NCBI RefSeq assembly: GCF_016469035.1
Contig: NZ_JAEHJZ010000039.1
Location: 264 to 64,263, forward strand
Direction: 5' to 3'
Length of the DNA: 64,000 bases
Source of the DNA: Gelidibacter salicanalis
GTDB taxonomy: Bacteria > Bacteroidota > Bacteroidia > Flavobacteriales > Flavobacteriaceae
The first letter of the stretch is position 1. Each line of letters opens with the position of its first letter. Positions 6,870 through 32,220 of this stretch are shown in pieces. The translations under genes were made by a program, and so were the position numbers. Below the pieces are notes generated by a model. The model made no database searches, was not told where the DNA came from, and saw only the letters and a program-made list of their open reading frames with translations.

Positions 6870-7529
6870 GTTGGGTTTTCTTGTTGAAATGTTTTGGATG
6901 CATAAGATAAGGCTGAACGTAAACAAGCATTGTAAACCGTGGCTAGTAAGCATCTGACTGATGAGGCTAAAGATAACAATAATAGGGAATGGAGCCACCT
7001 ATGCTTTAAAGGAGTTGTAGTCGTAATTCGTCAAAATGGGGTATTATTTAATCAATAGAATAGTCTACGCAAAAATCTAGAAAGAAAACGGATCGAAATC
7101 GAGGCAAGTGAGGGGATTGAATTTTAAAATTATAAATTCTGAGATCAATTATTGGTACATTGAAACCGCTTAGAGAGATTAAAATGCGGACTGTTGGATT
7201 GGTATCAACTGCGTCTTGTTGGTTAACTTATTTTATAAAAATCGAAGCGCAAGTCCAATTAATTTAAAAGTTGAATATTCCTTGAAAAAGAGAAACGAAA
7301 ATAGCTTGATCAAATAAGATGGGTTAACTTCAAAAAAAGCCGTATATCGATTAATATGTAATACATAATACAATTAATCTTATTTTATTAACTTAGCGAC
7401 GTGATTTAATAATGAATACTATCCGTTTTGCTTCATTTGTAATCTGTTGGAGCTGTGAAAAACGAATATAAATTTAATGATTACGTCCGAATTCGAACGA
7501 ATTTTTAATAATAAAGTAATATTTCTAAA
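6870..7529. promoter_or_regulatory. divergent control region between GH29 operon and symporter gene
   Basis: About 660 bp with no convincing gene separates two divergent transcription units. It contains the strong direct-repeat motif listed separately at 7028-7054, a TAnnTTT-like element on the minus strand at 6968-6975, and a weaker motif-like stretch at 7307-7333 nearer the symporter. The rest is AT-rich without recognised features. Confidence 0.6.
7028..7054. promoter_or_regulatory. candidate operator of the hybrid two-component regulator (copy 1)
   Basis: Half-sites TCGTCA (7028-7033) and TAATCA (7049-7054) are spaced 21 bp start to start, with a GGGGTATTATTT core between them. The core is shared with 27630-27656 and partly with 15892-15918. 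On the minus strand a TATCTTTA element lies 53 bp away (6975-6968), the same distance as at both GH109 promoters, though the motif is inverted relative to GH29. Confidence 0.5.
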
Positions 7530-10139
7530 ATGAAGAAACTCCAAAAAGCGGTCCTCTTAATTGCAATCATGCTCACGTGTTTGCCATTATGTAGTCAGGA
7601 AATATCCAAGTTAGATCGTTCAGAATTGCCGGCTTTGCCAGCGGTTAATAGCACTAGCGAATCCATTGGATATGCAGGGATGTTGGGCGGGGCTCATAAC
7701 GGTGTGATTTTGGCTGCCGGAGGCGCTAACTTTCCGGAAGGCAAGCCTTGGGAAGGTGGTAAAAAGGTATGGAGCGCGTCTGTTTTTATTTTAGAACATG
7801 GACAATGGCGACTCTCCACAACACAATTGCCTATGCCTTTAGGGTATTCAGCCTCCGTTAGTACGGCTCAAGGCGTGTTATGTATTGGCGGTAATAATGA
7901 GGGTCTCATAAGTGATAGCGTATTTTTATTGGCTTATAATAAGGTCTCCAAAGAAGTTGATATCACTAAATATCCGAAGCTTCCGGAGCCATTGGCATTT
8001 ACGTCAGCAGTAGTAGATGAAGATTTTGTGTATGTTATTGGAGGTAATTCTAAGGATGGTAGCACGAATTCATTTTATAGATTGTCTTTAAAAGGTAAGC
8101 AAAATTGGGAGCGATTAAAAGATTTTCCGGGACGTCCTAGAGCGCTACATACAACCGCGATACAAGAAACACAAACCACCAAAAAATTATTCGTTATTGG
8201 TGGTCGCTCGGAAAGTCCAGGAAAAAAATCGGAGGCCTTAACCAACTATTTATCTTATGATTTTAAAAATAAAGTTTGGGCTGATGAGGGAGATTTGTTA
8301 ATTAAAGATACACCACGCGTCTTAATGGGCGCTTCAGCCGAGGTCATGGGGTCCATGCACATAATGGTTTATGGCGGTAGTGACGCTGTGCTTTTTGATG
8401 AATTGGAAACGATAGGACGGCAACTGGCTACAACGCCCAATGATTCTACAGCCACTGCATTAACCTCCAGACGTGATGGCATTTTAAATAATCATCCAGG
8501 ATTTTCAAAAGATATTTTGGCTTATAATACCATCACTAAGAAGTGGTTTGTTTATGATCAACTAACTACCCAAATCCCGGTAACCGCACTTGCCTTTAAA
8601 AACAACGGCGATTTTATTATTGTCTCGGGAGAAGTGTCTCCAGGGATTCGAACATCAGGCTCACAAAGCTTTAAGATTGCTGATGCGGCGCATCCTTTCG
8701 GAGTTCTGAACTATACAATTCTTGCTCTGTACTTGCTAATATCTGTACTGATTGGGCTGTATTTTGCACGAAAACAAAAATCAACGGACGATTATTTTTC
8801 AGGTGGTGGCAGGATCCCTTGGTGGGCTTCAGGCTTGAGTGTGTTTGGAACCTTATTGAGTGCCATTACCTTTATGGCCATTCCTGCTAAAGCATTTGTG
8901 ACAGATTGGTCCTTCTTTTTTCTAAATATCACCGCAATCCTTATCACGCCACTTATCGCATTTGTGTTTATTCCATTCTTTAATAAGCTTAAGATAAAAA
9001 CGGCTTATGAATATCTTGAAGATCGGTTTAATTATACAGCTCGTGCTTTTGGAAGTTTCTCTTTTATCTTATTTCAATTAGGCCGGATAGGCATCGTATT
9101 ATTACTACCATCTTTGGCCATTTCTATTGTGACGGGCATCCCTGTGGAAATCAGTATTTTAATTATGGGCGTGCTTTGTGTATTCTACACCACCTTTGGA
9201 GGTATTGAAGCCGTGATTTGGACCGATGTGATGCAGGTAATCGTGCTGCTCGGCGGTAGTGTTTTGGCGGTAGCGTGGATCATGCTTCATACCGAAACCT
9301 CCTTTGGAGATATGATTACGTACGCTTCTGAACGGGATAAATTCAATATAGCCAACATGAATTTTAATTTTACTGAATCGACGTTTTGGGTGGTGTTTAT
9401 TGGTGGACTCGCTTCTGCAATGGTGACCCAAGGTACGGATCAAACCATAGTACAACGGTATTTAACCAGTAGTAGCGTTAAAGATTCTCAAAAAACACTC
9501 TATACCAATGCTGTGCTGACATTGCCGGCAACCATTATCTTTTTTGGGATTGGTACCTTATTATTTATGTTCTATTCTGAAATGCCTGGCAAACTGTCTC
9601 CAGCGATGTCCAATAACGACTCCATTTTTCCGTGGTATATTGTCAGAGAATTGCCGATGGGGGTTTCAGGTTTGTTGGTAGCCGGGATATTTTCTGCAGC
9701 CATGTCCAGTATCAGTAGTAGTTTGAACTCTGTGTCTACAGCCTATTGCAACGATTTTCATATGCATTTTAAGCCAGGGGTCAATGATCATAAATTACTA
9801 AAAATTGCCAGGATTGTAACCGTGGTAACGGGTGTGCTTGGTGTGCTTTTAGCACTATGGATGGCCAGTTCTAATATCAAATCATTATGGGATCAATTTT
9901 ACCGATTCTTAGGGCTTTTTACAGGCGGACTAGGAGGGATGTTCCTTTTGGGGATGCTTACCAAACGTGCTAATGCTACAGGAACTTTAATGGGCTTGGT
10001 AGTGAGTGCGCTGTTGATATGGTATATTAGTGTGTTTACGGAAATCAACTTTTTAATGTACTCCTTCTTTGGGGTGGCCTCTTGTTTTACATTCGGCTAT
10101 ATATTCAGTTTGTTTTTTGGAAAACCTAAAGTTAGATAA
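7530..10139 (+). CDS. Kelch/NanM-like domain fused to sodium:solute symporter
   Basis: An 869-residue fusion. A signal peptide (about 1-22, ending LCSQ) is followed by a Kelch-type beta-propeller at about 30-380 that resembles the cyclically permuted N-acetylneuraminate mutarotase family (GGAHNGVILAAGGANFPEG at 53-71, repeated GG-containing blades). From about 391 to the end it is an SSS-family symporter with about 13 membrane segments and the DDYFSGGGRIPWWASG signature at 420-435. By family knowledge the propeller would convert sugar anomers in the periplasm and hand them to the transporter. Sialic acid is the likely substrate by homology, but no sialidase gene is in the window, so another amino sugar is possible. 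It is monocistronic and divergent from the fucosidase operon. Confidence 0.82.
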   Translation: MKKLQKAVLLIAIMLTCLPLCSQEISKLDRSELPALPAVNSTSESIGYAGMLGGAHNGVILAAGGANFPEGKPWEGGKKVWSASVFILEHGQWRLSTTQLPMPLGYSASVSTAQGVLCIGGNNEGLISDSVFLLAYNKVSKEVDITKYPKLPEPLAFTSAVVDEDFVYVIGGNSKDGSTNSFYRLSLKGKQNWERLKDFPGRPRALHTTAIQETQTTKKLFVIGGRSESPGKKSEALTNYLSYDFKNKVWADEGDLLIKDTPRVLMGASAEVMGSMHIMVYGGSDAVLFDELETIGRQLATTPNDSTATALTSRRDGILNNHPGFSKDILAYNTITKKWFVYDQLTTQIPVTALAFKNNGDFIIVSGEVSPGIRTSGSQSFKIADAAHPFGVLNYTILALYLLISVLIGLYFARKQKSTDDYFSGGGRIPWWASGLSVFGTLLSAITFMAIPAKAFVTDWSFFFLNITAILITPLIAFVFIPFFNKLKIKTAYEYLEDRFNYTARAFGSFSFILFQLGRIGIVLLLPSLAISIVTGIPVEISILIMGVLCVFYTTFGGIEAVIWTDVMQVIVLLGGSVLAVAWIMLHTETSFGDMITYASERDKFNIANMNFNFTESTFWVVFIGGLASAMVTQGTDQTIVQRYLTSSSVKDSQKTLYTNAVLTLPATIIFFGIGTLLFMFYSEMPGKLSPAMSNNDSIFPWYIVRELPMGVSGLLVAGIFSAAMSSISSSLNSVSTAYCNDFHMHFKPGVNDHKLLKIARIVTVVTGVLGVLLALWMASSNIKSLWDQFYRFLGLFTGGLGGMFLLGMLTKRANATGTLMGLVVSALLIWYISVFTEINFLMYSFFGVASCFTFGYIFSLFFGKPKVR

Positions 10140-10152
10140 CAGATAATTAGAG

Positions 10153-10938: not shown

Positions 10939-11097
10939 ACTATTTAATTTTAGACCTAATTTAATTAAAAAACTTCGATGAGTCGTCTCGACTGAGCACT
11001 TACTTTCGTCTTTGAAATCGCCGATAATTTATTATCTTCAACCCAATCAAACTGAATCATAACACTACCAAACAAATAAACCTCTAAATTTTAGTCT

Positions 11098-11526
11098 ATG
11101 AAAATCTATAAACTCACTTTGGTAACGGATGTTGTAGTAGAGGCATTTGCCAATTTAATTCCGCAACTTGCTCCTAGTTGTCAATTGCCAACAAAAGAAG
11201 ATTTAAAGGCTATCGTGAACTCTAAACATACCCTGCTTTTTATGGCGGAGGAAAATAATGAGATCTTAGGCACCATGACGCTCGTATTAAATAAAATACC
11301 TACAGGCGATAAAGTTTGGATTGAGGATGTGGTGGTCGATCAATCAGCCAGGGGTAAAGGCGTTGGCGTAAAGTTGATTCAGTTTTCAATTGATTACGCT
11401 AAAACCGAAAAGCTAATGAGCATCAACTTAACGTCTAGTCCTGATCGCGTTGCTGCCAATCAGCTTTATCAGAAATTAGGGTTTATTCAAAGAGAAACCA
11501 ACGTTTATAGACTGACTATAAAATAG
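11098..11526 (+). CDS. GNAT-family N-acetyltransferase
   Basis: A 142-residue single-domain acetyltransferase. The acetyl-CoA binding motif VVVDQSARGKGVGVKLI lies at about 80-96 and NQLYQKLGF at about 121-129 is the typical C-terminal GNAT motif. The substrate is unknown; some small stand-alone GNATs of this type act on amines or drugs. It is monocistronic, flanked by divergent and convergent genes, and shows no link to the utilisation locus. Confidence 0.85.
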   Translation: MKIYKLTLVTDVVVEAFANLIPQLAPSCQLPTKEDLKAIVNSKHTLLFMAEENNEILGTMTLVLNKIPTGDKVWIEDVVVDQSARGKGVGVKLIQFSIDYAKTEKLMSINLTSSPDRVAANQLYQKLGFIQRETNVYRLTIK

Positions 11527-11654: not shown

Positions 11655-14600
11655 TTAAGATTTTACTTCATGCTTATTTAAGTACTCGTCAACACCTGTA
11701 GCTAGAGCGTCGTTTTTAAAAGCTATCGGATTTTTCTTAAAGTGTTTTTTAAAGCATTTTGAAAAGTACTTCGGATCATTGAAACCTGTTTTAAAAGCAG
11801 TTTCCGAAACAGTATACCCATGTTTAGTGATTAAAATAGCGGCTTTTTTCAGACGCAAAATCCTTACAAAATCAACTAGGCTATGGCCTGTTAAAGATTG
11901 GCATTTTCTATAAATGCTTGAATAGCTCATGTTTAAAGGCGCGACCAGATCTTCCATCTTAAAATTAGAGTCCTCCAATCTTAAGTTAATATGTGACACC
12001 AAATTTTCAAGAAATAGTTCATCTTGAGATTTCTCTATAAAGTCTTCAGGTCTCGAAATGACTTCTTTGCGGTATTTGCTGATGATATATTCTTTAGAAA
12101 TTAAAATATTTTGAATTTTCAGCAGCAACTCATTGGTGTTAAAAGGTTTGTTAATGTATTCTATGGCGCCAGATTTCAATCCTTTCAGTTTTGAATTTGT
12201 GGAATTTTTAGCGGTCATTAAAATAACAGGAATGTGCTTTGTGAGCTGATCTTCTTGAAGTAATTTGCTCATTTCAATACCGTCTAATTCTGGCATCATG
12301 ATATCACTTAAGATGAGGTCAGGTAGGTTGCTTTTGGCGTAATAATAGCCTTCGTTACCATTCTCAGCTAAAATTATATTGTAATGATGTTCCAACAATT
12401 CCTTTAAAAACAACTGTAGGTCTAGCGTGTCTTCCACAATCAGAACTGTTTTTTTTAATATATTGGGATCGTTATGGTCTATTGATAGTAACTCCTCTTC
12501 CATTGTGTCATAGGTAGCTTCATCTTCATAATCTACAGTAATCCGTTCCGTATCGGTATAGACGTCATCAGTTACTGGGAAAGTAATGGAGAATGTTGTA
12601 CCACTTGTTTTGGAAGATTCTACTTCAATGGTTCCCTTATGCAAATCAATGAGCTCTTTGGTTAGCGCTAGTCCGATACCGGTGCCTTTATTTTTTTTAC
12701 CGATATGAGACTGATAAAAAAGCTCGAAAATGGAGTCTAACTCTTCCTTGGCAACGCCTGCGCCAGAATCGCTCACTGCGATTTTCACCATCTTATTTAA
12801 ATTGACAGGAGTCACTATCAATTGAATATTGCCTTCTCTAGGGGTGAATTTAAATGCGTTGGAGAGCAAATTGTAAATAATGTGCTCAATTTTGTCCTTA
12901 TCATACCAGGTGTCAGTTAAATTTTTAGGACTATTGACGGTAAAATCTATATTCTTTTTTCGAGCTAATTCATTAAACGAACGTACAATGTCTTCAACGT
13001 TATCGTGTAAATTATTTTTCGTAACCATTAATCTTAACTTGTCCAATTCTTTATTCCGGACCAAGGTTAACTCATAGGCTATTTTAGAAAGACGCCTTGC
13101 GTTGTAGGCAATAATGTTGAGGCGTTGTTTTAGAAGTAAATTGCCATTTTTTTCAGCTTTGATAATCATATCCTCGATAGGGCCTAAGATCAATGTTAAT
13201 GGGGTTTGAATTTCGTGAGACATTTTGGCGAAAAAGTTCATCTTTAATTGATGCAGCTCATTTTCATTTTTGTGATTTATTTTTTCTAAATACAAGTTCT
13301 TTTTCAAACCATACCAGCGTCTGATGCCATAAATAATTAACAAACCAACACATAGGTACAACACCCACGCAATGGGTTTGTTCCAAAAAGGTTTTTCAAT
13401 GTTAATGGTGATGCTTTTGGTAGGCACGTCCCATGTATCATCCTTCGTGCCAGCTTTTACTTCAAAAGTATAGTTGCCGGCAGGAATATTAGTATAGGTT
13501 GCGGAACGGTCATGATGACTAAGTATCCAATCTTTATCAAAGCCTTTTAAGCGATAGGCGTAATAATATTTGGGATGTAAGACATTATCAATAGCAGCAA
13601 ATCGGAAAGCAAATGAGGATTCATTATGCTTCAATTTTAGGGTTTTTAGCTTACTAAAACCTTCTGTAATTTGATCTGGCAATAACACGTTGGCCGGTTG
13701 ATTAAGGACTTCAATGTTATTAATTTGCAGAATGGGACGGGATTCTTTCTTAAATAAATCTTGAGGGTAGAAGTAATTAAAACCCTTCAAACCTCCAAAA
13801 TAGAGCATGCCTGTATGGTCTTTAAAGGCACTTCTGGACAAGAACGTATTATCTTGTAGTCCGTCTGTACTGTAATAGGTTTTTATAATTGAATCATGTG
13901 TTTTAAAATTTATAATGCCATCAGTAGAACTTATCCATAAGTTGTCATCTCCAATGTTGATCACTGCCGTTAGTGATTTGTTGGAAATTGCCGATAATTC
14001 TTCAAAAGAAGAGAATACGCTACTATTGGTGTCATATTTTAATAACTTTCCGGAATCGTCTATAAGCCATAAGCTATTATAGGCACCTTCAGCAATGTGT
14101 TTGATGCCTCTAATTCTATCCAATTCAGAATTGCGAATGGAGCGGTCAATAAATGTTGAGGCGTTCAATTTATTATAATTTTCATTAAACTGAAATAAGC
14201 CTCCACCAACAGTGCCCAACCACAATTTCGCATCTTGTGATTCAATTATACTCTGTACAATTAAACCTTTTAAGTTGTTAGTGTTATTTTCAAAAGAAGC
14301 CAGGAGTACGAAATCATCGTTGTAAATGTTTAAACACGTGTTAGAACCAACCCATATGCGGCCCTTTCGATCTGTATATACCGTTCTCACATCAGAGGCT
14401 TTCTGGTTTTTTACATTAAAGACAGGACTATTTTTAAATTGTCTGGCTTTTGCATCATATATCCAAAGACCATTTTTATAAGTACCTACCCAAATATTTC
14501 CCTTATTGTCTTCTGCTATGGTTTGTATATAAAATCCCTTATTTGTAATCGGATCATTAAAAAAAGTCTCTTCTTTAATGATATCATTACCATTAAATGT

Positions 14601-15737
14601 AATTTTTGTAAGTCCTGATCCGTCTGTGCCCGCCCATAAAATGTTGTCAGAACTTTTTAAAAGACTTAATATTCTGTTCGGATATTGTTGATCAGAGCCT
14701 TCATGATAATTAATTGTGTTGGCTGCATTGGGAAGAATGTTGAGGTTACCATAATTTGGTGTAATCCAGATGTTTTGGTGATTGTCTTCAGTAATATGAA
14801 GAATCGTATTACTACTTAAAGAAAACTCATTGCGTGTTTGTTTCATAAAAAGAAGGACATCGCCAGTTGTCAAGTTGACTTTGTACAATCCGCCGCCATC
14901 TGTTCCTGCCCATAAAAAATCATTGCTGTCAATAAATAGGTTTAAGAACAATTCGCTTTTTATATTGTGATAATTGCCTTTAAAAAATGACTCTTGAATA
15001 AAGGTCTTGCTAGGGATATCATATAAGAAAAGACCTTTTGTTTCAGTACCAATCCAAAGTCTGTCATAAGTATCAGTGGTCAGAATCAGGTCTTCGGGGT
15101 AATTATTAAAGGGTGCATCTATATATTCTAGTGTTTGGGATGCTAATGAGTAAAAAAGGATATTACCGTCTCCAGTACTAATAAATAGGGTATTGGAGGC
15201 TCCAACTGCAAAATCCGTGATTTTTGTAGATCTGTGGTATAGATCGGGAATGGTCGTAATGAGATCCATCGTGCCATCTTTATAAGCGTAAATCGTTCCT
15301 GTGTTGGTCATAATCCATAAACTGCCATCTCTTGAAGTCATGACACTGACCCGCTGATTTTCTAAAAGAGGAGTCAAATCTTCAAAGGTACCTTTCTCGG
15401 CATTGTATCGGGTTAAAAATCCTTGATACGTTGACAAATATATGTTTTGAGAGGTGTCAGTAATCATATCCTTTATAATTGCTGCACCATCGGCTTTAGG
15501 AAATATTCTTTTACTAGGGATCAGACTGTAATTATAGCCATCAAAGACGTAAATATCTCCTTTTTGAACCATCCAAATATTTCCAATATTATCTTGTATG
15601 GTTTTGGTGACGGCAATGGGCGTATTATCCGATGAAGGCGAAATATGGGTAAAGTTAATATGATTTTGGGCTAATGATAGGTGCATTACTCCTAAGAAAA
15701 AGTAAAAAATGGTCCATCGGTCTCTCAATTGGTGCAT
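11655..15737 (-). CDS. hybrid two-component system regulator (HTCS)
   Basis: A 1360-residue one-protein signalling system. A signal peptide (about 1-23) precedes a periplasmic sensor of two-component-regulator propeller repeats (about 30-670) and a Y_Y_Y domain (about 705-782). One membrane helix follows at about 787-804. Cytoplasmic parts are a HisKA domain with phospho-acceptor His841 (MSHEIQTP), an HATPase domain (N-box NAFKFTP; GTGIGLAL at 1018-1025), a receiver with Asp1145 (LILSDIMMP) and Lys in NKPF, and an AraC-type DNA-binding domain at about 1245-1343. HTCS proteins bind glycan breakdown products in the periplasm and activate the adjacent utilisation genes. It is divergent from the GH109-susCD operon, its likely target together with the GH29 operon and the second GH109 operon. 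Confidence 0.95.
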   Translation of the reverse strand: MHQLRDRWTIFYFFLGVMHLSLAQNHINFTHISPSSDNTPIAVTKTIQDNIGNIWMVQKGDIYVFDGYNYSLIPSKRIFPKADGAAIIKDMITDTSQNIYLSTYQGFLTRYNAEKGTFEDLTPLLENQRVSVMTSRDGSLWIMTNTGTIYAYKDGTMDLITTIPDLYHRSTKITDFAVGASNTLFISTGDGNILFYSLASQTLEYIDAPFNNYPEDLILTTDTYDRLWIGTETKGLFLYDIPSKTFIQESFFKGNYHNIKSELFLNLFIDSNDFLWAGTDGGGLYKVNLTTGDVLLFMKQTRNEFSLSSNTILHITEDNHQNIWITPNYGNLNILPNAANTINYHEGSDQQYPNRILSLLKSSDNILWAGTDGSGLTKITFNGNDIIKEETFFNDPITNKGFYIQTIAEDNKGNIWVGTYKNGLWIYDAKARQFKNSPVFNVKNQKASDVRTVYTDRKGRIWVGSNTCLNIYNDDFVLLASFENNTNNLKGLIVQSIIESQDAKLWLGTVGGGLFQFNENYNKLNASTFIDRSIRNSELDRIRGIKHIAEGAYNSLWLIDDSGKLLKYDTNSSVFSSFEELSAISNKSLTAVINIGDDNLWISSTDGIINFKTHDSIIKTYYSTDGLQDNTFLSRSAFKDHTGMLYFGGLKGFNYFYPQDLFKKESRPILQINNIEVLNQPANVLLPDQITEGFSKLKTLKLKHNESSFAFRFAAIDNVLHPKYYYAYRLKGFDKDWILSHHDRSATYTNIPAGNYTFEVKAGTKDDTWDVPTKSITINIEKPFWNKPIAWVLYLCVGLLIIYGIRRWYGLKKNLYLEKINHKNENELHQLKMNFFAKMSHEIQTPLTLILGPIEDMIIKAEKNGNLLLKQRLNIIAYNARRLSKIAYELTLVRNKELDKLRLMVTKNNLHDNVEDIVRSFNELARKKNIDFTVNSPKNLTDTWYDKDKIEHIIYNLLSNAFKFTPREGNIQLIVTPVNLNKMVKIAVSDSGAGVAKEELDSIFELFYQSHIGKKNKGTGIGLALTKELIDLHKGTIEVESSKTSGTTFSITFPVTDDVYTDTERITVDYEDEATYDTMEEELLSIDHNDPNILKKTVLIVEDTLDLQLFLKELLEHHYNIILAENGNEGYYYAKSNLPDLILSDIMMPELDGIEMSKLLQEDQLTKHIPVILMTAKNSTNSKLKGLKSGAIEYINKPFNTNELLLKIQNILISKEYIISKYRKEVISRPEDFIEKSQDELFLENLVSHINLRLEDSNFKMEDLVAPLNMSYSSIYRKCQSLTGHSLVDFVRILRLKKAAILITKHGYTVSETAFKTGFNDPKYFSKCFKKHFKKNPIAFKNDALATGVDEYLNKHEVKS

Positions 15738-15891
15738 AACTAAGTACTGCGTTTTTAATGAAAGGTCTAAAATAGCTTATAAGTGTTAATATCTTCAGAG
15801 ATTTTTGAATTTAATCTCATTAAATATAAAACTATGTGTTGAATAATGATGAGATGTGTAATAGTAAAAAAGAATGCGAAGGGGTATAAAG

Positions 15892-15918
15892 TGATCAAAT
15901 AGGAGTAAATTTTGAGCA
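15892..15918 (+). promoter_or_regulatory. candidate HTCS operator (copy 2), upstream of GH109a
   Basis: Half-sites TGATCA (15892-15897) and TGAGCA (15913-15918) are 21 bp apart, and the core AATAGGAGTA matches copy 3 (AATAGGGGTA) closely. It sits in the divergent region between the hybrid regulator gene and the GH109a operon. It is less perfect than copies 1 and 3. Confidence 0.5.
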
Positions 15919-15949
15919 TTTCAGTGATAATACTGTTAAACGCTGAAAA

Positions 15950-15978
15950 TTTGCCCCTCTTTTTATAACATAAGTTTC
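15950..15978 (+). promoter_or_regulatory. candidate promoter of the GH109a-susCD operon
   Basis: TTTG at 15950-15953 is followed after 17 bases by TAAGTTTC at 15971-15978, close to the Bacteroidota -33 TTTG / -7 TAnnTTTG consensus with the final G changed. The 17-base block starting at 15971 (TAAGTTTCAYATTTGGG) recurs at 27709-27725 before the second GH109 gene. Both copies lie 53 bp past the direct-repeat motif. Confidence 0.45.
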
Positions 15979-16025
15979 ACATTTGGGAATAGAATAATTT
16001 AACGAAACATTAACTATTAATTAAT

Positions 16026-17384
16026 ATGGGTTCTAGAAGGGATTTTGTAAAAACTACGGCGTTAGCTGGAGCTGGGCTTTTTATGTTGCCAAATATATCG
16101 TTTGGAGCCATGACAGGTGAGTCCGATCAAAAATTGAAAATCGCTTTTATAGGTATTGGAGAAAGAGGCATTATGCATTTAAGTAATGCTATGTATAGAA
16201 AGGATGTTGAAGTTACTGCAATTTGCGATGTGGACCCTAAACGGATTGATATAGCTTTAAAAATGATCTCCGATAGAAAATTTGCTAAGCCCTTAGTTTT
16301 TGATAAATCAGATAATGACTACAAAAACCTGCTCGATTTAAAAGAGGTAGATGCTGTAGTGATTTCAACACCTTGGTTATGGCACACAAGAATGGCGGTA
16401 GATTCCATGAAAGCTGGTAAATACACCGGTCTAGAAGTTTCTGCGGCCAATACCTTGGAAGAATGCTGGGATTTGGTGAACACACACGAAGCAACAGGAT
16501 CGCATTTGATGATTCTTGAAAATGTAAACTACCGTCGCGATGTTTTAGCCGTATTGAATATGGTCAAACAAAATGTTTTTGGAGAGTTAGTGCATTTTAG
16601 ATGTGGCTATCAGCATGATTTACGTGAGGTAAAATTCAACAATGGCACGCAACCCTATGGCGGAGGTGTAGAATTTGGTGATAAGGGGTATTCTGAGGCA
16701 AAATGGCGCACACAACATTCGCTTTTAAGAAATGCTGATGTGTATCCAACCCATGGCTTGGGCCCAATAGCCGTAATGTGTGATATTAATAGGGGCAACC
16801 GATTAATGTCATTAACATCACATGCTTCAAAAGGTATCGGACTGCACAATTATATTGTGGACAAGGGAGGAAAAGATCACCCCAACGCGAAGTTAAAATT
16901 CAAGCAAGGTGATGTCATTACCACCACCGTTGAAACTACCAATGGCGAAACCATTATCATAACCCATGATTGTAATTTACCAAGACCTTATTCCTTAGGG
17001 TTTAGAGTTCAGGGAGCCAATGGCCTATGGGAAGTTGATGGCAACCGGATTTATATTGAGGGCAAATCGAATCCTCACCGTTGGGATGCTGCCGATGAGT
17101 GGCTCGAAAAATATGACCATCCCTTATGGAAAAAGTACGGTGAGAAGGCTACAGGAGCGGGACACGGTGGCATGGACTTTTTTGTACTAAATGCATTTAT
17201 AGAATCGGCCAAAGAAAATAGTGCACCGCCAATGGATGCCTATGATGCTGCAGCATGGAGTTCAATAACACCATTATCAGAAGCTTCCATAGAAAATAAC
17301 GGAGAACCTCAGGATATTCCTGATTTTACAAGAGGGATGTGGGTAAAACGCAAACCTTATAATTGGATTAAAGAATCTTATTAG
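16026..17384 (+). CDS. GH109-type Gfo/Idh/MocA protein, Tat-exported (copy a)
   Basis: A 452-residue protein of the NAD-dependent glycosidase family whose studied members cleave alpha-N-acetylgalactosamine (for example the Tn/blood-group-A sugar). A twin-arginine signal (SRRDFVK at 3-9, hydrophobic stretch to about 27) implies export folded with its cofactor. The Rossmann motif GIGERG is at 43-48, and the GH109-like block YPTHGLGP at 240-247 contains His243. It is first gene of an operon with SusC, SusD, a binding protein and an M60 peptidase, 39 bp before susC. It is about 88% identical by eye to the copy at 27758-29116, with no gaps. GH109 membership is from motif recall and gene context; another Gfo/Idh/MocA activity is possible. 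Confidence 0.8.
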   Translation: MGSRRDFVKTTALAGAGLFMLPNISFGAMTGESDQKLKIAFIGIGERGIMHLSNAMYRKDVEVTAICDVDPKRIDIALKMISDRKFAKPLVFDKSDNDYKNLLDLKEVDAVVISTPWLWHTRMAVDSMKAGKYTGLEVSAANTLEECWDLVNTHEATGSHLMILENVNYRRDVLAVLNMVKQNVFGELVHFRCGYQHDLREVKFNNGTQPYGGGVEFGDKGYSEAKWRTQHSLLRNADVYPTHGLGPIAVMCDINRGNRLMSLTSHASKGIGLHNYIVDKGGKDHPNAKLKFKQGDVITTTVETTNGETIIITHDCNLPRPYSLGFRVQGANGLWEVDGNRIYIEGKSNPHRWDAADEWLEKYDHPLWKKYGEKATGAGHGGMDFFVLNAFIESAKENSAPPMDAYDAAAWSSITPLSEASIENNGEPQDIPDFTRGMWVKRKPYNWIKESY

Positions 17385-17423
17385 ACTAAACAACCATGAA
17401 AATTAACTAACAAAAATTACTTT

Positions 17424-20400
17424 ATGAAAAAATTATTTACTTTCTTATTGTTGACAATATTTGTTACCGTTGGGTTTGAGGCTCAGGCACAGAGCACTCA
17501 AAAAACCATAACGGGAACTGTAATAGATGTTGATAAAGTTCCTGTGATAGGTGCCAATGTTATTGTTGATGGTACATCTATTGGAACCATAACTGATTTT
17601 GACGGAAAATATAGTATTACAATGCCTTCTACGGCACGTTCTATATCTGTATCTTATGTGGGTTATGCCACTCAAACGATAGTCATTGGTGAGCAAAAAG
17701 TCATTGATGTCACTTTAGAAGTTGATGCTGCTGGCTTAGACGAGGTGGTGATAGTTGGGTACGGACAACAGAAAAAAGAAAGTGTTGTTGGTGCACAAGC
17801 TACTATTAAACCTAGAGAACTTAGATCTCCTACTGGAAATCTAACCACGGCAGTTGCGGGTAGAATAGCTGGAGTAGTTGCCACTCAGAGAGGAGGGGGG
17901 CCTGGTGCAGACGGAGCAACCTTATTTATTAGAGGTATTGGAACCTTTGCCAGCAGCCCACAAGCCCCGTTACTAGTAGTTGATGGAGTGCCAGATCGTG
18001 ATATCAATAATATTGATCCAGAAGACATTGAAAGTTTTACAGTGCTTAAGGACGCAACAGCTACAGCTGTATATGGAACACGTGGCGCTAATGGCGTTAT
18101 ACTTATCAATACCAAAAGCGGTAAGATTGGTAAACCTACAATTAATGCTGAATACAATCACGGAATTACCAGATTTACGGATCTTCCAGATTTTGTGGAT
18201 GGGCCAACATTTATGAGGCTTTACAACGAAGGTTTAACCATGCGGGGTAGAACGCCAACCTATACTGAAGAAGTTATTGGATTTCATGAGAGTGGGGTGG
18301 ATCCGGATTTATATCCAAATGTTGATTGGTATGATGTGTTATTCAAGGATTTCGGGAGTAATGATAGAGTGACTCTAAACGTTGGTGGTGGTTCTGAATC
18401 AGCACAATATTATTTATCTGCAGGTTATTACGGAGAGTCAGGTTTGTTCAAAACAGAAAATATTGACTCTTACAATTCTGAGTTAAAGCTGAACAGGTTT
18501 AATTTTACAAGTAACTTAAATTTAAATATTACCAGAAATACAAAATTGGATTTTGGAATAAACGGTTATATCACTGATTATAACCGACCGGCTTATGGTG
18601 TGAATACTATTTTTAATATTGCTACGGCTTCTTCACCGCATACTATTCCTTCGCAATATAGCAATGGTCAATGGCCACAAATAAAAGGAACACTTCAAAG
18701 TCCTTATATGGCATTAACCCAATCTGGTGTTACCAACCAGGCCTCTAACACCATAAGATCGAATCTAAGAGTAACTCAGGAATTAGATATGGTTTTAGAT
18801 GGTTTAAGCGCAACGGCCATGTTCGCTTATGACGTTAACAATAGTACTAATTTAACCCGATCAAGAAATTTGCAAACCTATTTTGCAACAGGTCGTGATG
18901 ATGAAGGTAATTTAATTACTGAGATCTCAGCTCCAGGTTCAGATGAGTTAGGGTTTGAGTTGACACGTTTTGGTGATAAAAGATTTTATGTGGAAGCGGC
19001 AACAAATTATGCTCAAAAATTTGGTGATCACGACGTTTCAGGTCTACTTCTATTCAATCAATCTGATTTTAGAGATGCTTCTGATCGAGTTACTAGTTAT
19101 AAGGCAGCCATTCAATATAGACAACGTAATTATGTAGGACGTGTAAACTATGGTTATGCTGACAAATACTTTGCTGAAGCTAACTTTTCCTACTCCGGTT
19201 CAGATAACTTTGTGGATAGTGAACGTTATGGTTTCTTTCCTTCCTTTGGGGCTGGATGGATTATTTCTAAGGAAAAATTCTTTGAACCCCTCCAGAATAT
19301 CGTTTCTAATTTTAAATTAAGATATAGTTATGGTCTTTCTGGAAATGCGGCGGTTGATAATCCTAATTTACGATTCTTATACTTAACAACAATTGGTAAC
19401 AGCGCCGGTTATACTTTTGGGGCTCCAGGATCACAACGAAGTTATGGTGGTTATAATGAATCTCGAATTGGTGGTGATGTACGCTGGGAAACCTCGTATA
19501 GACAAAACCTAGGTATTGAATTGAGCTTTCTTAATAGTGATCTAGACCTTACGGTTGAATTATTCCATGAAAAAAGAGAAGGTATATTACTCCCTAATTA
19601 TGTAATCCCTTACGTTTCAGGATTTACAGTAAGTAATATTCCATACAACAATGTGGGGCGTACCGAAAATAAGGGTATAGACGTAACGCTAGATTATAAC
19701 AAGAATTGGAGTGGTACAAGCTTTTTCTCTTTTAAAGGAACATTTAATTACAATAAAAACAAGGCTGTATTTGATGGTCTTCCGGAATGGAGGTATCCTT
19801 ATCTAAATAGGATTGGTCAGTCAATCAGCCAGCGCTTCGGTTATATATCCCAAGGGTTTTTTGAGAGTGAAGAGCAGATTGCAAATGCAGCCGTGCAATC
19901 TGGTGATGTAAGGCCGGGAGATCTTCGTTACAAAGATCTTAATGGGGATGGTTTAATAAACAGTAATGACCAAACGGCCATTGGTTATGGAAGTGTTCCC
20001 CAAATTGTCTATGGATTGAGCTTTGGAGGAGGTTTTAAAGGTTTTGATATTAGCTTGTTTTTTCAAGGTACTGCGCTTGTTGATTTTAATTATGCAGGTG
20101 GTTTTGGAACAACACCATTTTCACAAGGTGCAAATTACGGTAACATGTACGCGACAGTCAATGATCGTTGGACACCTGAAAACCCTAACCCTAATGCGTT
20201 TTATCCAAGATTGTCCACGAATCAGGATCAAACTACTAATTACTACACCAGTACACATTGGGTTGAAAGAGCTGATTATATTAGATTAAAGCAAGCCGAA
20301 ATAGGGTATACTTTTGAGGATAATAGTTTTTTAAATAAATATGCTATTCAGAAAGTTAGGTTGTTTTTGAGCGGAACTAATCTCTTTACAATTTCACCTT

Positions 20401-20495
20401 GGAAGCACTGGGATCCAGAACTTGGCGATGGACGGGGTGCAGCCTATCCTAATATTAGTGTTTACAACGTAGGTTTACGTTTTAATTTTCAATAA
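17424..20495 (+). CDS. SusC-family TonB-dependent outer-membrane transporter (copy a)
   Basis: A 1023-residue porin-like importer for oligosaccharides or glycopeptides. Signal peptide about 1-23; carboxypeptidase-regulatory-like domain at about 27-100 (GTVIDVDKVPVIGANV); SusC-type signature LDEVVIVGYGQQKKESVVG at 105-123; plug to about 230; then the 22-strand barrel, ending in an aromatic residue pattern (LRFNFQ). It is paired with susD 8 bp downstream and preceded by GH109. The substrate is inferred as O-glycan or glycopeptide fragments from the neighbours. Confidence 0.95.
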   Translation: MKKLFTFLLLTIFVTVGFEAQAQSTQKTITGTVIDVDKVPVIGANVIVDGTSIGTITDFDGKYSITMPSTARSISVSYVGYATQTIVIGEQKVIDVTLEVDAAGLDEVVIVGYGQQKKESVVGAQATIKPRELRSPTGNLTTAVAGRIAGVVATQRGGGPGADGATLFIRGIGTFASSPQAPLLVVDGVPDRDINNIDPEDIESFTVLKDATATAVYGTRGANGVILINTKSGKIGKPTINAEYNHGITRFTDLPDFVDGPTFMRLYNEGLTMRGRTPTYTEEVIGFHESGVDPDLYPNVDWYDVLFKDFGSNDRVTLNVGGGSESAQYYLSAGYYGESGLFKTENIDSYNSELKLNRFNFTSNLNLNITRNTKLDFGINGYITDYNRPAYGVNTIFNIATASSPHTIPSQYSNGQWPQIKGTLQSPYMALTQSGVTNQASNTIRSNLRVTQELDMVLDGLSATAMFAYDVNNSTNLTRSRNLQTYFATGRDDEGNLITEISAPGSDELGFELTRFGDKRFYVEAATNYAQKFGDHDVSGLLLFNQSDFRDASDRVTSYKAAIQYRQRNYVGRVNYGYADKYFAEANFSYSGSDNFVDSERYGFFPSFGAGWIISKEKFFEPLQNIVSNFKLRYSYGLSGNAAVDNPNLRFLYLTTIGNSAGYTFGAPGSQRSYGGYNESRIGGDVRWETSYRQNLGIELSFLNSDLDLTVELFHEKREGILLPNYVIPYVSGFTVSNIPYNNVGRTENKGIDVTLDYNKNWSGTSFFSFKGTFNYNKNKAVFDGLPEWRYPYLNRIGQSISQRFGYISQGFFESEEQIANAAVQSGDVRPGDLRYKDLNGDGLINSNDQTAIGYGSVPQIVYGLSFGGGFKGFDISLFFQGTALVDFNYAGGFGTTPFSQGANYGNMYATVNDRWTPENPNPNAFYPRLSTNQDQTTNYYTSTHWVERADYIRLKQAEIGYTFEDNSFLNKYAIQKVRLFLSGTNLFTISPWKHWDPELGDGRGAAYPNISVYNVGLRFNFQ

Positions 20496-20503
20496 ATACG
20501 ACT

Positions 20504-22330
20504 ATGAAAAATATTAAAAACATAACATTTATATCATTCAGTATTCTTTTTGTATCGCTTTTTACAGCCTGCGAAAAAGATTATTTTGATACCCAACCCG
20601 ATAATCAGTTATCAGTAGATGGAATTTTTTCTAACCGCGGCCAAACAGAAACTTGGTGGGCAGGACTATTCAGTAATATCCCTGATATCTGGGATCAACC
20701 TTACAACTATCAATACGGACTAACCACTGATGAGAGTGATGCCAGCAATTGGATTAATCCGGGGATCAACAGCGGTGCTATTACTCCTGATAATACACCG
20801 TCTAATTTTCAATCACTTTATGAACGTATCCGTTTAGCAACAATTTTCTTAGACCGTGTTGATGGAAACATTGAAATATTAGAGCAGGCTGGTGGAGATC
20901 AAATTATTCAGCATTATAAAGGTGAGGCCAGGTTTTTAAGAGCATACTATTATTGGAGGATGATGAAACAGCTCGGGCCGGTTGCGTTTGCGCCACTTGA
21001 GCCTGGACAACCTGGAGATGATTTTCAAATTCCGAGAAGTACTTGGGACGAGAGTGTTGATTTTGTTTTATCTGAACTAGCATTAGCGAAATCAGATTTA
21101 CCAGTAGATTACTATTTAGATGGAAATGCCGTCGATGGTACTCAAATTGGAAGAATCAATAAAATTATCGTTACCGCTCTAGAGTCTCAAATTTTACTTT
21201 ACCATGCGAGTCCGCTCTTTAATGGAAATACAGAATTGGCTGATTTTAAAAATCTTGATGGTACTGTTTTATTTAATCAAGTCTATGATGCCAGCCGTTG
21301 GGATAGAGCCGCACAAAAAGCCATAGAAGCAATAGATATCGCTGAGGCTAATGGGAAAAGCTTATTCCGTGTAGAAGATTCAGATCCATTTAGGGCTGGG
21401 TTTTTATCCAGTCGCAATTTATTTTGGGATGGATGGAGAACTGAGGGAATATGGGTAAGACCTTCAAGCAGTTCCAGTCAATGGGAAATTCATGCCGCGC
21501 CACGGTCTACTGCGGGAACTGCCTATAACGGTATTGCCGTCATTCAAAGTTTGGTTGATGAATATCGTATGGATGATGGTACAAGTATTGAGGATAGTGA
21601 TATCTATAACGAAGATACTTACACTGATGCTGCAACAACATATTATGCGGCTGGCACTAATGCGATGTACACCAATAGAGAACCACGTTTTTATGCGCAT
21701 ATTTCTTTTAATGGCTCCGATAATCCGGGCGTTGAAAAATCGGGTATTAACAATTCTCGTGTCGAATTTTTCTATTCAGGAACTTCAGGCAAGTCAGCAT
21801 CGCCTAGAGACTGGCCGAAAACTGGTTATACTGCCAGAAAAAATATTCATCCTACATTTAGTGTAAATCCATGGGTGACGGTGAGCAGACCCGCAATGCT
21901 TATAAGATTGGCAGAACTCTATTTAAATTATGCAGAAGCTTTGAACGAGTCAAATCCGGGAGATCCAAATATCTTGCTTTATTTAAATAGGATCAAAACA
22001 AGAGCGGGACTACCTGAAATGACAGCTGGGCTGAGCCAAGAACAAATGCGCCAAGAAATACGGCATGAAAGACGTATCGAATTGAGTTTTGAAGGACACC
22101 GCTATTTTGATGTGCGTCGATGGAAAATTGCAGGGCTACCTGGATCGAATCAAGGAGGAGCATTCTACGGGATGGACATGAATAAAGGAACGTTTTTATC
22201 TGATCCTGCGTTCCATACAAGAACTATTGGTTTTACAAGAGCGCCATGGCAACGGAAATTTTATTTTATGCCTTACGGTCAAAATGAAATGGATAGAAAT
22301 AAGCAATTGGTCCAATTCCCAGGTTATTAG
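20504..22330 (+). CDS. SusD/RagB-family surface glycan-binding lipoprotein (copy a)
   Basis: A 608-residue partner lipoprotein forming the lid over SusC. The lipobox is LFTAC (Cys23). The SusD N-terminal region (DYFDTQPDNQLSVDGIF) and the C-terminal RagB/SusD block (RIKTRAGLPEM, EIRHERRIELSFEGHRYFDVRRWK) are clear. At 608 residues it is longer than the copy at 32221-33807 (528). It is cotranscribed with susC, and the start is 8 bp after the susC stop. Confidence 0.95.
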   Translation: MKNIKNITFISFSILFVSLFTACEKDYFDTQPDNQLSVDGIFSNRGQTETWWAGLFSNIPDIWDQPYNYQYGLTTDESDASNWINPGINSGAITPDNTPSNFQSLYERIRLATIFLDRVDGNIEILEQAGGDQIIQHYKGEARFLRAYYYWRMMKQLGPVAFAPLEPGQPGDDFQIPRSTWDESVDFVLSELALAKSDLPVDYYLDGNAVDGTQIGRINKIIVTALESQILLYHASPLFNGNTELADFKNLDGTVLFNQVYDASRWDRAAQKAIEAIDIAEANGKSLFRVEDSDPFRAGFLSSRNLFWDGWRTEGIWVRPSSSSSQWEIHAAPRSTAGTAYNGIAVIQSLVDEYRMDDGTSIEDSDIYNEDTYTDAATTYYAAGTNAMYTNREPRFYAHISFNGSDNPGVEKSGINNSRVEFFYSGTSGKSASPRDWPKTGYTARKNIHPTFSVNPWVTVSRPAMLIRLAELYLNYAEALNESNPGDPNILLYLNRIKTRAGLPEMTAGLSQEQMRQEIRHERRIELSFEGHRYFDVRRWKIAGLPGSNQGGAFYGMDMNKGTFLSDPAFHTRTIGFTRAPWQRKFYFMPYGQNEMDRNKQLVQFPGY

Positions 22331-22350
22331 AACTTAAAACTTTAAACAAA

Positions 22351-23364
22351 ATGAAAAAAAGATATTTATTATATACATCTCTAATAGTTATACTTGGACT
22401 ACACTCCTGTGAGAAGGACGCTATACCATACGAAGAGTTAACTGACAATAAAGAAGGAGCCTTAATATTTACCTCTAAAGCGAGAGGAGGTATTAAAACT
22501 CTACAAACTTTTTCTCTTGAGGAAGAAAGTTACTTAGAAAAAGATACTGTTATGTTCAACGCAGGTTTTGGAGCTTTAGGTTTGCCTGCCAGTAATATTG
22601 ATGTTACTTTTTCAATCGATACTAGGGCGTTTGATAGTATTAATGACATTCGAGAACTTAATGGTGAGAAATTGTATATACCATTCCCGAGTGATGCTTA
22701 TTCAATAAGTACTTTGGAATTGACAATTCCAAAGGGTGAAGAATATTCAAACTTTTCAACAATGATCTATGATCCTGAAAAATTTGACATAGACAATAAT
22801 TACTTAATTGCGCTTTCCATCATAGATGCTTCAGGGTATAAAATTAATCCTGAGGTTAAAACAGCTATTTTTCGAGTTTCTGAAGTTATAATTCCTGAAC
22901 CAGAACCAGATTACTATAGCAAAGATGATTGGGAAGTTATTGATTTCAGTTCAGAAGAAAGTAAAGGAGAAGGTACAAATGGGTTTGCTTCAAGAATTAT
23001 TGATGGCGATATAAATACGTTTTGGCACTCTTGCTGGTCTGGTTGTACAGAAGAACAATCTACTTATCCACATCATATAACTGTGGATATGATGACTGGC
23101 AAAGAAATTAACGGGATGGAATTTGCGCAACGTCAATCTGGGTCTCGTGGAATCAACTTAATAGAAATTGAAGTTAGTGATGATAATGAAGCCTGGAGAA
23201 GCCTAGGCGAATTCAATCTGATAAATTCTGTTGCACCTCAGTTAGTTGCTTTTGAAGAATTGGAATCCTTTAGATTTTTTAGAATTATCATTAAATCAGG
23301 GCATAGTGATGGTGGAGCAGCGTTTGTAGCTCTTGGTGAAGTAAGTCCATATATTTTGGATTAA
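22351..23364 (+). CDS. DUF1735 plus discoidin-domain surface lipoprotein
   Basis: A 337-residue lipoprotein (lipobox GLHSC, Cys20). Residues about 35-175 look like a DUF1735 domain (DVTFSIDTRAFDSIN, IPKGEEYSNF, INPEVKTAIF), typical of surface glycan-binding proteins encoded after SusD. Residues about 195-335 form an F5/8 type C (discoidin/CBM32-like) domain starting near DGDINTFWHS. It is inferred to help hold glycan at the cell surface and present it to SusCD. It follows susD by 20 bp and is followed by a terminator-like hairpin, so it closes the first operon. Confidence 0.8.
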   Translation: MKKRYLLYTSLIVILGLHSCEKDAIPYEELTDNKEGALIFTSKARGGIKTLQTFSLEEESYLEKDTVMFNAGFGALGLPASNIDVTFSIDTRAFDSINDIRELNGEKLYIPFPSDAYSISTLELTIPKGEEYSNFSTMIYDPEKFDIDNNYLIALSIIDASGYKINPEVKTAIFRVSEVIIPEPEPDYYSKDDWEVIDFSSEESKGEGTNGFASRIIDGDINTFWHSCWSGCTEEQSTYPHHITVDMMTGKEINGMEFAQRQSGSRGINLIEIEVSDDNEAWRSLGEFNLINSVAPQLVAFEELESFRFFRIIIKSGHSDGGAAFVALGEVSPYILD

Positions 23365-23457: not shown

Positions 23458-23496
23458 AAGCGGTGTTTTGAAAGAGATGCCGCTTTCATTTTTTAG
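23458..23496 (+). terminator. terminator after the GH109a-susCD operon
   Basis: AAGCGG (23458-23463) pairs with CCGCTT (23480-23485), extendable inward with G-U pairs, and is followed by a T-rich run. It separates the SusCD operon from the M60 peptidase gene. Confidence 0.6.
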
Positions 23497-23581
23497 TATC
23501 ATTTATACATGAAAAAATATTAATAGAGAAGGTCTTCATCGGCGCGTATGCTACTAATTAAATTTTTAACCATAAAAACCC

Positions 23582-25798: not shown

Positions 25799-25813
25799 TT
25801 GAGAAAAAATAGC

Positions 25814-25845
25814 AGGAGAGTTACGAGCTCTGTAACTCTCCTTTT
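25814..25845 (+). terminator. strong hairpin between M60 and DUF3472 genes
   Basis: A perfect 11-bp inverted repeat (25814-25824 and 25832-25842) with a 7-base loop and a short T-run lies in the 69-bp gap. It could end M60 transcription or attenuate read-through into the DUF3472 gene. Confidence 0.65.
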
Positions 25846-25867
25846 AACAAAAATTAAAACATAACTT

Positions 25868-27178
25868 ATGAAACTTCATTATTGGGTAATCTTCTGTGTA
25901 TTGGTTTTTTCGTGTAAACCCCAACAGGTTACTAACGAAACCTCAAGCAAGGAACAACTTATTCTAACCACTGAAATCCCTGCACAGCCTAACAGCTGGA
26001 TGGTCAATAGTCAACACAAAAACAAGAAAACCCCCAGCATTGAAACCAAACAGTGGACGGACATGAATCAGGTGATGCGAACCTATTTTAAAACAGACAC
26101 TTCGGGTAAGCTTCACTTGGGCTTAAATGTAAGGGTGCCAGAAGGCATATCGAAACTGAAAGTTACTCTAGGGGGTACAACAAAAACAATAGAAATATCA
26201 AACACTGATGCTAAAACTATTGAAGTAGGTATTTTTGAGATTTCAGAAGGCTATAATTTTGTTGAAATTGAGGGGTTGGAGAAATCAGGAGCCGTGGTTG
26301 CCAATATCAGCAAAGTCTTAATCGGCGGTCCTGCCACAAAAGGCCATGTCTATTTTATAAAGGATGATTTTTATTTTGGACGCCGTGGACCATCCGTCCA
26401 CTTATCCTATGAAATGCCTAAAGACAAGGAAGTCGTGTACTTTTATAACGAAATTAATGTTCCTAAAGGCGAAGACGTCATCGGCTCCTATTATATGGCC
26501 AATGGTTTTAAGGATGGCTATTTTGGCATTCAGGTCAATTCTGAAACGGAGCGTCGCATCCTATTTTCGGTTTGGAGTCCTTTTGATACCCAAGACCCCA
26601 ATGAGATTCCTGATGACCATAAAATAATATTATTGGGTAAAGGTGCTGGCGTGACCACAGGCGAGTTTGGCAACGAAGGTTCAGGTGGTCAGAGTTATAA
26701 AGTTTACAATTGGAAGTCAGATACCACCTATAAGTTTTTATTGAAAGGGGTGCCGGTAGAAAATAATTCAACAGACTATACTGCATATTTCTACACCCCA
26801 GAAGATGGCAGATGGAATTTAATTGCCAGTTTTAGAAGGCCTCAAGCCAGTAGATACTTAAAAAACCTGTATTCATTTTTGGAAAATTTCGATACAAAGA
26901 CGGGCAACATTACAAGAAAAGCGAATTACAATAACCAGTGGATTTACAGCACCGATAAGGAATGGACAGAATTGACCACAGCTAAATTTACCGCAGATGC
27001 GACGGCTAGAAAAGAATCAAGAATGGACTATGCTGGCGGAGTCGAGGGCAACCAGTTTTTTATGAAAAATTGCGGATTTTTTAACGACACCACACCAATT
27101 GATACTGTATTTACCAGAACGGCCAATGGAGTGGCGCCAATAATTGATTTTTCAAAGTTAGAGATCCCAAAAAGTTAA
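25868..27178 (+). CDS. DUF3472 family lipoprotein (function unknown)
   Basis: A 436-residue lipoprotein (lipobox VFSC, Cys16). An N-terminal DUF5077-like beta domain (about 30-160) precedes a DUF3472-like domain at about 180-370, recognised from blocks such as YDWKSDTTYKF-type sequence, YTAYFYTPEDGRWNLIASFRRP and LYSFLENFDTKTGN. No catalytic motif is recognised, so it may be a glycan-binding protein or an enzyme of unknown type. It ends the M60 segment and its last codons run into a strong terminator. A second copy of the same terminator at 33887-33916 is preceded by a remnant resembling the end of this gene. Confidence 0.75.
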   Translation: MKLHYWVIFCVLVFSCKPQQVTNETSSKEQLILTTEIPAQPNSWMVNSQHKNKKTPSIETKQWTDMNQVMRTYFKTDTSGKLHLGLNVRVPEGISKLKVTLGGTTKTIEISNTDAKTIEVGIFEISEGYNFVEIEGLEKSGAVVANISKVLIGGPATKGHVYFIKDDFYFGRRGPSVHLSYEMPKDKEVVYFYNEINVPKGEDVIGSYYMANGFKDGYFGIQVNSETERRILFSVWSPFDTQDPNEIPDDHKIILLGKGAGVTTGEFGNEGSGGQSYKVYNWKSDTTYKFLLKGVPVENNSTDYTAYFYTPEDGRWNLIASFRRPQASRYLKNLYSFLENFDTKTGNITRKANYNNQWIYSTDKEWTELTTAKFTADATARKESRMDYAGGVEGNQFFMKNCGFFNDTTPIDTVFTRTANGVAPIIDFSKLEIPKS

Positions 27179-27202
27179 TATTTTTTTGAGTTAGTTAGTC
27201 AG

Positions 27203-27232
27203 AAAACCCGAAAACATTGTTTTTCGGGTTTT
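27203..27232 (+). terminator. terminator after the DUF3472 gene (copy 1 of a duplicated sequence)
   Basis: A perfect 12-bp stem (27203-27214 with 27221-27232) and a T-run form a rho-independent terminator. The surrounding block, from the DUF3472 stop codon through the hairpin, recurs nearly unchanged at about 33846-33918. Confidence 0.85.
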
Positions 27233-27290
27233 TTTATAAGTATAATATGGCTGAGAACAAGCATAGATGGGCCTTAATATAGAATAGATT

Positions 27291-27522
27291 ACGCAACTCA
27301 AGCTTGGGATGGGGTTTGAAAACGTGTATATTACTAAGGCTTTTCATTACTGGGAAATGATGGTTTAACGGCACGGTACTTTTTATTGGTGGGACTTGAA
27401 ATTAAGGGCGAATTAAAATTCGACCGATTCACTTCTTTTAATTCGGCCGTGTTTCCTGTTGCTGCGGTAGTAAGTGGCGCATTGTTTCCAGCGCTTATAT
27501 AATTTGCTTTCAATCAGGACAC
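27291..27522 (+). pseudogene. decayed nhaA fragment
   Basis: This stretch aligns with codons about 45-122 of the intact nhaA gene at 34208-35542. In the aligned frame it reads VGLEIKGELKFDRFTSF and PVAAVVSGALFPALI, against VGLEIKSELKFGRLTSF in the intact gene. It is dead: a single-base deletion precedes the GLEIK region (TGGGAAATG against TGGGTAAATG) and a TAA stop replaces a Tyr codon after FPALI. Both the 5' end and the rest of the gene are missing. By eye, identity at the DNA level is roughly 70-75%, so it is an old copy. It marks the right-hand end of a duplicated segment. Confidence 0.85.
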
Positions 27523-27629
27523 AGGTAGGCTGTTAGGTCATTAACCACAGTTTTAAGGGTAGAGGTTTGGTACACCAATGTGTGCCACGACCGGGGTTTT
27601 GCTAAACCATCCTTGTTTAGGGCATTCAT

Positions 27630-27656
27630 TCGTCAAATAGGGGTATTATTTCGTCA
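27630..27656 (+). promoter_or_regulatory. candidate HTCS operator (copy 3), upstream of GH109b
   Basis: The best-formed copy: TCGTCA at 27630-27635 and TCGTCA again at 27651-27656, exactly 21 bp apart, around an AATAGGGGTATTATT core. A TAAGTTTC element starts 53 bp past it (27709) and the GH109b ATG is at 27758. Confidence 0.55.
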
Positions 27657-27757
27657 GTTCTTCCCCAATCCCTGAAAACGCCTAAAATATCTCCAATTCT
27701 ATACCAGTTAAGTTTCATATTTGGGCGCACGATTATTAAACAATTAACTATTTCAAT

Positions 27758-32207: not shown

Positions 32208-32220
32208 TACATAGTACAAG

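Follow-up and report, generated by a model that had tools for sequence, protein, structure and literature searches.

The stretch of DNA analysed here (the window) is 64,000 nucleotides from a marine bacterium, the Gelidibacter salicanalis contig NZ_JAEHJZ010000039.1 (assembly GCF_016469035.1). Its left part carries, on the minus strand, a run of genes headed by a GH29 alpha-L-fucosidase (4782..6869, assigned with Pfam), a probable lipoprotein with a lipobox recognised by eye, and continuing through a GH20 gene (3037-4752), an M28 peptidase gene (2084-3040) and another GH20 gene (135-1799). Judging from gene order and strand, GH29 and the rest of this run (135..4752) may form one operon. The GH29 start is likelier to be the ATG at 6869 than the mechanically called GTG at 6998, because the GTG lies upstream of the likely promoter and the ATG begins a lipoprotein-like signal peptide. 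A NanM-SSF gene is found at 7530. Upstream of it, at 7351-7378, a near-palindrome, TTAATATGTAATACATAATACAATTAAT, was noticed by eye and recurs in seven Gelidibacter loci, slightly altered in L044; it resembles an operator for some other regulator, possibly one that governs sialic acid uptake.

A hybrid two-component system regulator (HTCS) is encoded on the minus strand at 11655..15737. It combines all the domains of its class in one chain: a Reg_prop/Y_Y_Y sensor, HisKA, HATPase_c, REC and an AraC-type HTH_18 domain. The phospho-accepting His and Asp are present (MSHE and LSDIMMPE, read by eye), 12aw_A is a REC-DNA-binding-domain relative, and the gene sits in a PUL with susC/susD. Two candidate target operons lie on the plus strand: GH109a, SusC1, SusD1 and a BT_3987-like gene (16026..23364), followed by M60 peptidase and DUF3472 genes, and GH109b, SusC2 and SusD2 (27758..33807). 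GH109a (16026-17384) and GH109b (27758-29116) are 79.5% identical in DNA. From its gene content, the locus looks as if it serves glycoprotein O-glycans. A separate starch/maltodextrin locus occupies 40890-63151, with genes for an alpha-amylase with a secretion tail, SusE/F, SusD, SusC, an MFS transporter, GH65, a cyclomaltodextrinase and GH31.

Three putative operator copies, all reading on the plus strand, are distributed over this PUL: TCGTCAAAATGGGGTATTATTTAATCA at 7028..7054, inverted with respect to the GH29 operon, its likely target; TGATCAAATAGGAGTAAATTTTGAGCA at 15892..15918, between the HTCS gene and GH109a; and TCGTCAAATAGGGGTATTATTTCGTCA at 27630..27656, before GH109b. Each is a tandem site of 27 bp, and both the coordinates and the distance of 21 bp between half-sites given in a preliminary description of this DNA were borne out, the half-sites being TCGTCA/TAATCA at 7028, TGATCA/TGAGCA at 15892 and TCGTCA/TCGTCA at 27630. 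The shared core AATAGGRGTA proposed there breaks down at 7028, where the core reads AAATGGGGTA. The copy at 27630 is the best match and that at 15892 the weakest; of the two GH109 copies, the HTCS-proximal one is the more degenerate. The second half-site is conserved far less than the first. HTCS-type operators are predicted to be direct repeats, located ahead of PUL operons, whose half-sites are about 21 bp apart, and the sites described here have this form.

With a test matrix made of nine sites, all from other genomes, the three sites took ranks 1 to 3 in a scan of the window (scores 37.2, 33.0 and 20.0; next 9.5). The maxima of 30 Markov-resampled windows, which served as the null, ranged from 7.9 to 18.0, so that on score the 15892 copy (20.0) stands barely above chance; its position, however, is the orthologous one, and six of the nine closest loci share its distance of 107 bp from the GH109 start. 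Rather than being found randomly across the genome, the 27-mer consensus matched three times at up to three mismatches in 5,163,451 bases (682 contigs), each time in this PUL, and a reversed control pattern matched once in the same assembly at the same tolerance. A looser consensus gave 11 matches against 9 for its control at up to two mismatches, and its zero-mismatch matches were the window's three sites only. The half-site alone proved unsuitable as a marker: at up to two mismatches its 16-bp core matched 109 times, and the reversed control still matched 65 times. Five of the further matches among these 109 were inspected (L001, L005-L008); they are inside predicted ORFs and, by eye, have no second half-site at 21 bp; we take them as chance.

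Among ten Gelidibacter genomes, the site is present in nine at up to two mismatches, the window's own included, and an HTCS ortholog at 68-74% identity is encoded in eight of the nine other than the window's own. The tenth genome (G001) has no site, no HTCS ortholog (best 32% identity) and no GH109 match; the locus is therefore missing there, which fits the model but makes a weak control. The nearest named matches are eight Gelidibacter loci and one labelled Polaribacter. This last record (L083, Polaribacter sp. IC073), whose HTCS, GH109, SusC2 and SusD2 are 68-83% identical to those of the window, is either mislabelled or the result of horizontal transfer. Of the 80 loci collected, the nine closest, again eight Gelidibacter and one labelled Polaribacter, have the site between HTCS and GH109, oriented towards GH109 and 107-109 bp ahead of its start. 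A matrix of the three window sites picks out the site at the HTCS/GH109 promoter in several genera, in most cases at 101-138 bp from the GH109 start, and the site is recognisable in Aquimarina, Snuella, Flaviramulus, Aestuariibaculum, Fulvivirga and other loci. Two loci outside every training set carry it as well, one of Gaetbulibacter (L055, with two sites) and one of Arenibacter (L072). Another matrix was trained on 24 sites and then recovered those same sites, so that only the L055 and L072 matches are independent; two of its matches fall inside genes (L046, L047) and are probably due to chance.

In the 16 group B loci, whose HTCS/GH109 promoters are more distant, the 27-bp motif is mostly lacking. 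The distal site of L073, L077, L095, L097, L107, L109 and, by eye only, L071 is related but different, TMRTCAAA..GGTAGGTA-like, and is accompanied by a GATAAAAAAACC-like proximal block. A core followed by GGTAG is matched in 6 of the 16 group B loci (shuffle mean 0.02), which fits the expectation and suggests that operator specificity may have drifted within the family. The bare distal core, present in 32 of the 36 group A promoters against a shuffle mean of 15.6, is a weak discriminator.

The relation between the motif and the DNA-binding domain of the HTCS was scored in 78 of the 80 loci, leaving out one truncated locus (L117) and one with no upstream DNA (L091); the nine training loci were excluded from the counts by DNA-binding-domain identity, and the threshold was the 99th percentile of the null, 13.2. 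At a DNA-binding-domain identity of at least 57%, the motif exceeded the threshold in 17 of 26 non-training loci, versus 4 of 43 below 57% (Fisher p 1.5e-6, a value that is only indicative, since the loci are related by descent and the 57% limit was chosen after earlier identity and motif results had been inspected). The nine misses in the upper group score 4.1 to 12.3, and in several of them a diverged copy is visible by eye; the four exceptions in the lower group score 13.3 to 23.2. When loci with an adjacent divergent GH109 gene were considered, again with training loci excluded, the motif was found in 15/23 loci of the 57-75% identity band and in 0/16 below 57%. As GH109 is adjacent in both sets, the motif follows the regulator and not GH109. 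Apart from the nine misses among 26, regulator and site are thus retained jointly, the site at the orthologous promoters.

In Flavobacterium psychrophilum the -7 consensus is TAnnTTTG, at positions -12 to -5 (PMC9723704), and transcription starts were predicted here by placing -7 boxes at these positions. The preliminary description had claimed a fixed spacing of 53 bp between site and promoter. Indeed, a block starts after 52 intervening bp at all three sites (TAAGTTTCAYATTTGGG at 15971 and 27709, TATCTTTA at 6975 on the minus strand); at the GH109 promoters, however, the distance had been counted to the block edge TAAG, and the -7 box that aligns across genera (CAYATTTG) comes 7 bp further on, at 15978..15985 for GH109a (CACATTTG) and at 27716..27723 for GH109b (CATATTTG), both on the plus strand. 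Since the putative -7 box of the GH29 promoter is the TAnnTTTG-like TATCTTTA itself (6968..6975, minus strand), site-to-box spacings differ by 7 bp between GH29 and GH109. As a rule the 53-bp spacing was rejected: it is the -7 box whose bases line up from genus to genus, and in most loci outside Gelidibacter the distal site has moved about 12 bp, or about one helical turn, further out (lags 49 and 61). On the HTCS side, where a putative -7 box occupies 15821..15828 on the minus strand (TATATTTA), a TAnnTTTA box is found 61-63 bp from the operator in 10/10 loci examined, a distance longer than that at GH29 by roughly one helical turn.

The rigid spacing that had been ascribed to the 21-bp site belongs instead to a proximal element, which the earlier account overlooked. 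It lies on the plus strand at 15942..15950 before GH109a (GCTGAAAAT, 40 bp before TTTG) and at 27680..27691 before GH109b (GCCTAAAATATC). Of the 36 group A promoters, 31 have its pattern, G[CT]NNAAA[AT], which was fitted after the alignment had been inspected, at a distance of 40-41 bp from the downstream TTTG of the -7 box, compared with a mean of 0.13 and a maximum of 2 after shuffling; in 28 of them the distance is exactly 40 bp. The distal site, by contrast, shifts. Eight of the 16 group B promoters also match (shuffle mean 0.06). The idea that the element is a general promoter box found no support: genome scans gave 94+100 matches versus 159+146 for the control when it was searched alone (up to three mismatches) and 66+59 versus 75+73 when the spacing to TTTG was required (up to two mismatches), and the sole perfect match in both scans was at GH109b. 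The proximal element is probably a further contact of the HTCS.

The direct-repeat spacing itself was examined by counting repeated 5-mers at lags of 8 to 64 bp. A lag of 21 bp was the strongest both in the 36 group A promoters (45 repeated 5-mers, null mean 8.8) and in 14 group B promoters (25, null mean 3.5). It was still the top lag in hand-picked, reduced sets of 15 group A and 9 group B promoters (20 and 18 counts), in which lag 22 (12 in A, 17 in B), lag 26 in A (11) and lag 17 in B (16) were enriched too; in the reduced B set lags 22 and 17 nearly match lag 21, and in the reduced A set one promoter supplies 6 of the 20 lag-21 counts. Six of the 15 A promoters and two of the 9 B promoters in these sets have no lag-21 repeat.

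The motif is confined to this locus in the genome, the site recurs at the divergent HTCS/GH109 promoter across genera, and the motif fades as the DNA-binding domain of the HTCS diverges. These three observations support the proposal of the preliminary description that the HTCS at 11655-15737 uses the sites as its operators, which we consider quite likely. The site could also belong to a different regulator encoded elsewhere, SusR-like or Crp-like for instance, and be found beside the HTCS gene through their shared PUL; the proximal element is unlike the distal one, and more than one protein may hence act there. Against this, the motif tracks the HTCS DNA-binding-domain sequence and occurs in the genome at this locus only, and the 21-bp tandem is the form predicted for HTCSs (PMC3878776); we consider this explanation improbable. 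It is harder still to believe that the upstream likeness of GH109a and GH109b is a gene duplication remnant and no operator: the two genes are close in DNA sequence and their leaders are alike, but a third copy stands before GH29, a gene unrelated to them, and other genera have these blocks too, in flanking DNA that varies. Control of both GH109-susCD operons by the HTCS is well supported.

The inverted copy at GH29 had been named as a weak point of the proposal. A GH29-upstream site is seen in two species only, and three other Gelidibacter loci that carry GH29 (L038, L042, L064) lack it. On the other hand, in the G. salicanalis locus L039 the site upstream of GH29 is inverted too, and TATCTTTAGCCT, conserved at the putative -7 box, again stands 52 bp away, even though the DNA between them has largely changed; the kept spacing suggests that the inverted copy is probably functional. 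Moreover, MarA-type activators work from forward sites near -40 and from reverse-oriented ones between -56 and -85 (PMC12052159), and RamA structures support opposite binding directions at two promoters (PMC8811837), so that inversion is by itself no argument against function. If TATCTTTA is the -7 box, the GH29 site would be centred at about -78; no proximal element was seen by eye at this promoter. That the 7028 copy is instead a relic, or acts on the NanM-SSF gene, strikes us as rather unlikely. Its orientation towards 7530 and the three GH29 loci without a site would agree with such a reading; against it stand the spacing shared with L039, the absence, by eye, of a -7 box at the matching place on the plus side, and the conserved palindrome that the SSF promoter has of its own, at a distance of about 300 bp. 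For the GH29 operon, control by the HTCS from the inverted copy is moderately supported.

From the sites, their spacings, conservation, exclusivity and association with the HTCS, all of which can be read in the DNA, we infer the following course of binding, phosphorylation and control, including its direction and the start sites. A glycan breakdown product would be bound by the periplasmic Reg_prop/Y_Y_Y domain, upon which phosphotransfer from HisKA to REC would release the AraC-type DNA-binding domain, and an HTCS dimer would sit on one face of the DNA, contacting both tandem half-sites, which are 21 bp apart. In the GH109-susCD promoters, the forward tandem would lie at about -98 to -72 and the proximal element (GCNNAAA..., about -48 to -40) in the place from which class II activators contact RNA polymerase. 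A single inverted tandem at about -91 to -65, with its strong half-site nearest the promoter, would act alone at GH29, like the reverse-oriented class I sites of MarA-type activators. As the 15892 copy is inverted relative to the HTCS gene, autoregulation is possible. Most likely, one sensor protein would switch on the genes for digestion of glycoprotein sugar chains via three docking sites. A composite promoter code in the HTCSs of this clade, made of a rigid proximal contact 40 bp from the TTTG of the -7 box and a distal 21-bp tandem that can be moved by about a helical turn or inverted, is a more tentative proposal, which we consider less likely than not.

HTCS operators were already predicted as direct repeats of about 21 bp in Bacteroides: Ravcheev et al. 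2013 gave such motifs, averaging 21 bp, for 16 HTCSs and suggested that dimers bind on one side of the DNA (PMC3878776). The present system resembles the Bacteroides thetaiotaomicron HTCSs of that study in having an AraC-type HTCS beside susCD and a direct repeat of about 21 bp upstream of PUL operons; it differs in belonging mostly to Flavobacteriaceae and to a GH109-type locus, with a proximal element at a fixed distance from the -7 box and one inverted copy as further traits. The REC-DNA-binding parts of BT4124 and BT4663 were examined by gel shift on susC-type promoters with predicted sites, and variants with a disrupted inhibitory interface bind (PMC11253607); those are other regulators at other promoters. 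MarA, SoxS, Rob and RamA are likewise AraC-type and use forward and reverse sites, but they are small enterobacterial proteins working with sigma-70, unlike a membrane HTCS at a Bacteroidetes TAnnTTTG promoter (PMC12052159, PMC8811837). Among the open-licence papers listed on HTCS direct repeats and operators, also in Flavobacteriia, on GH109 with HTCS and on Gelidibacter polysaccharide loci, none describes this site in its title or the start of its abstract.

The analysis thus yields a candidate operator and a candidate regulon for an HTCS from beyond the gut Bacteroides; the locus looks suited to glycoprotein glycans, and dozens of homologous loci are available. Thanks to the proximal element and the inverted copy, the way in which HTCSs contact the Bacteroidetes RNA polymerase becomes directly testable on natural promoters. 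If the composite code is true, the regulator would act in a class II-like manner at GH109-susCD and in a reverse class I-like manner at GH29, and possibly at its own gene.
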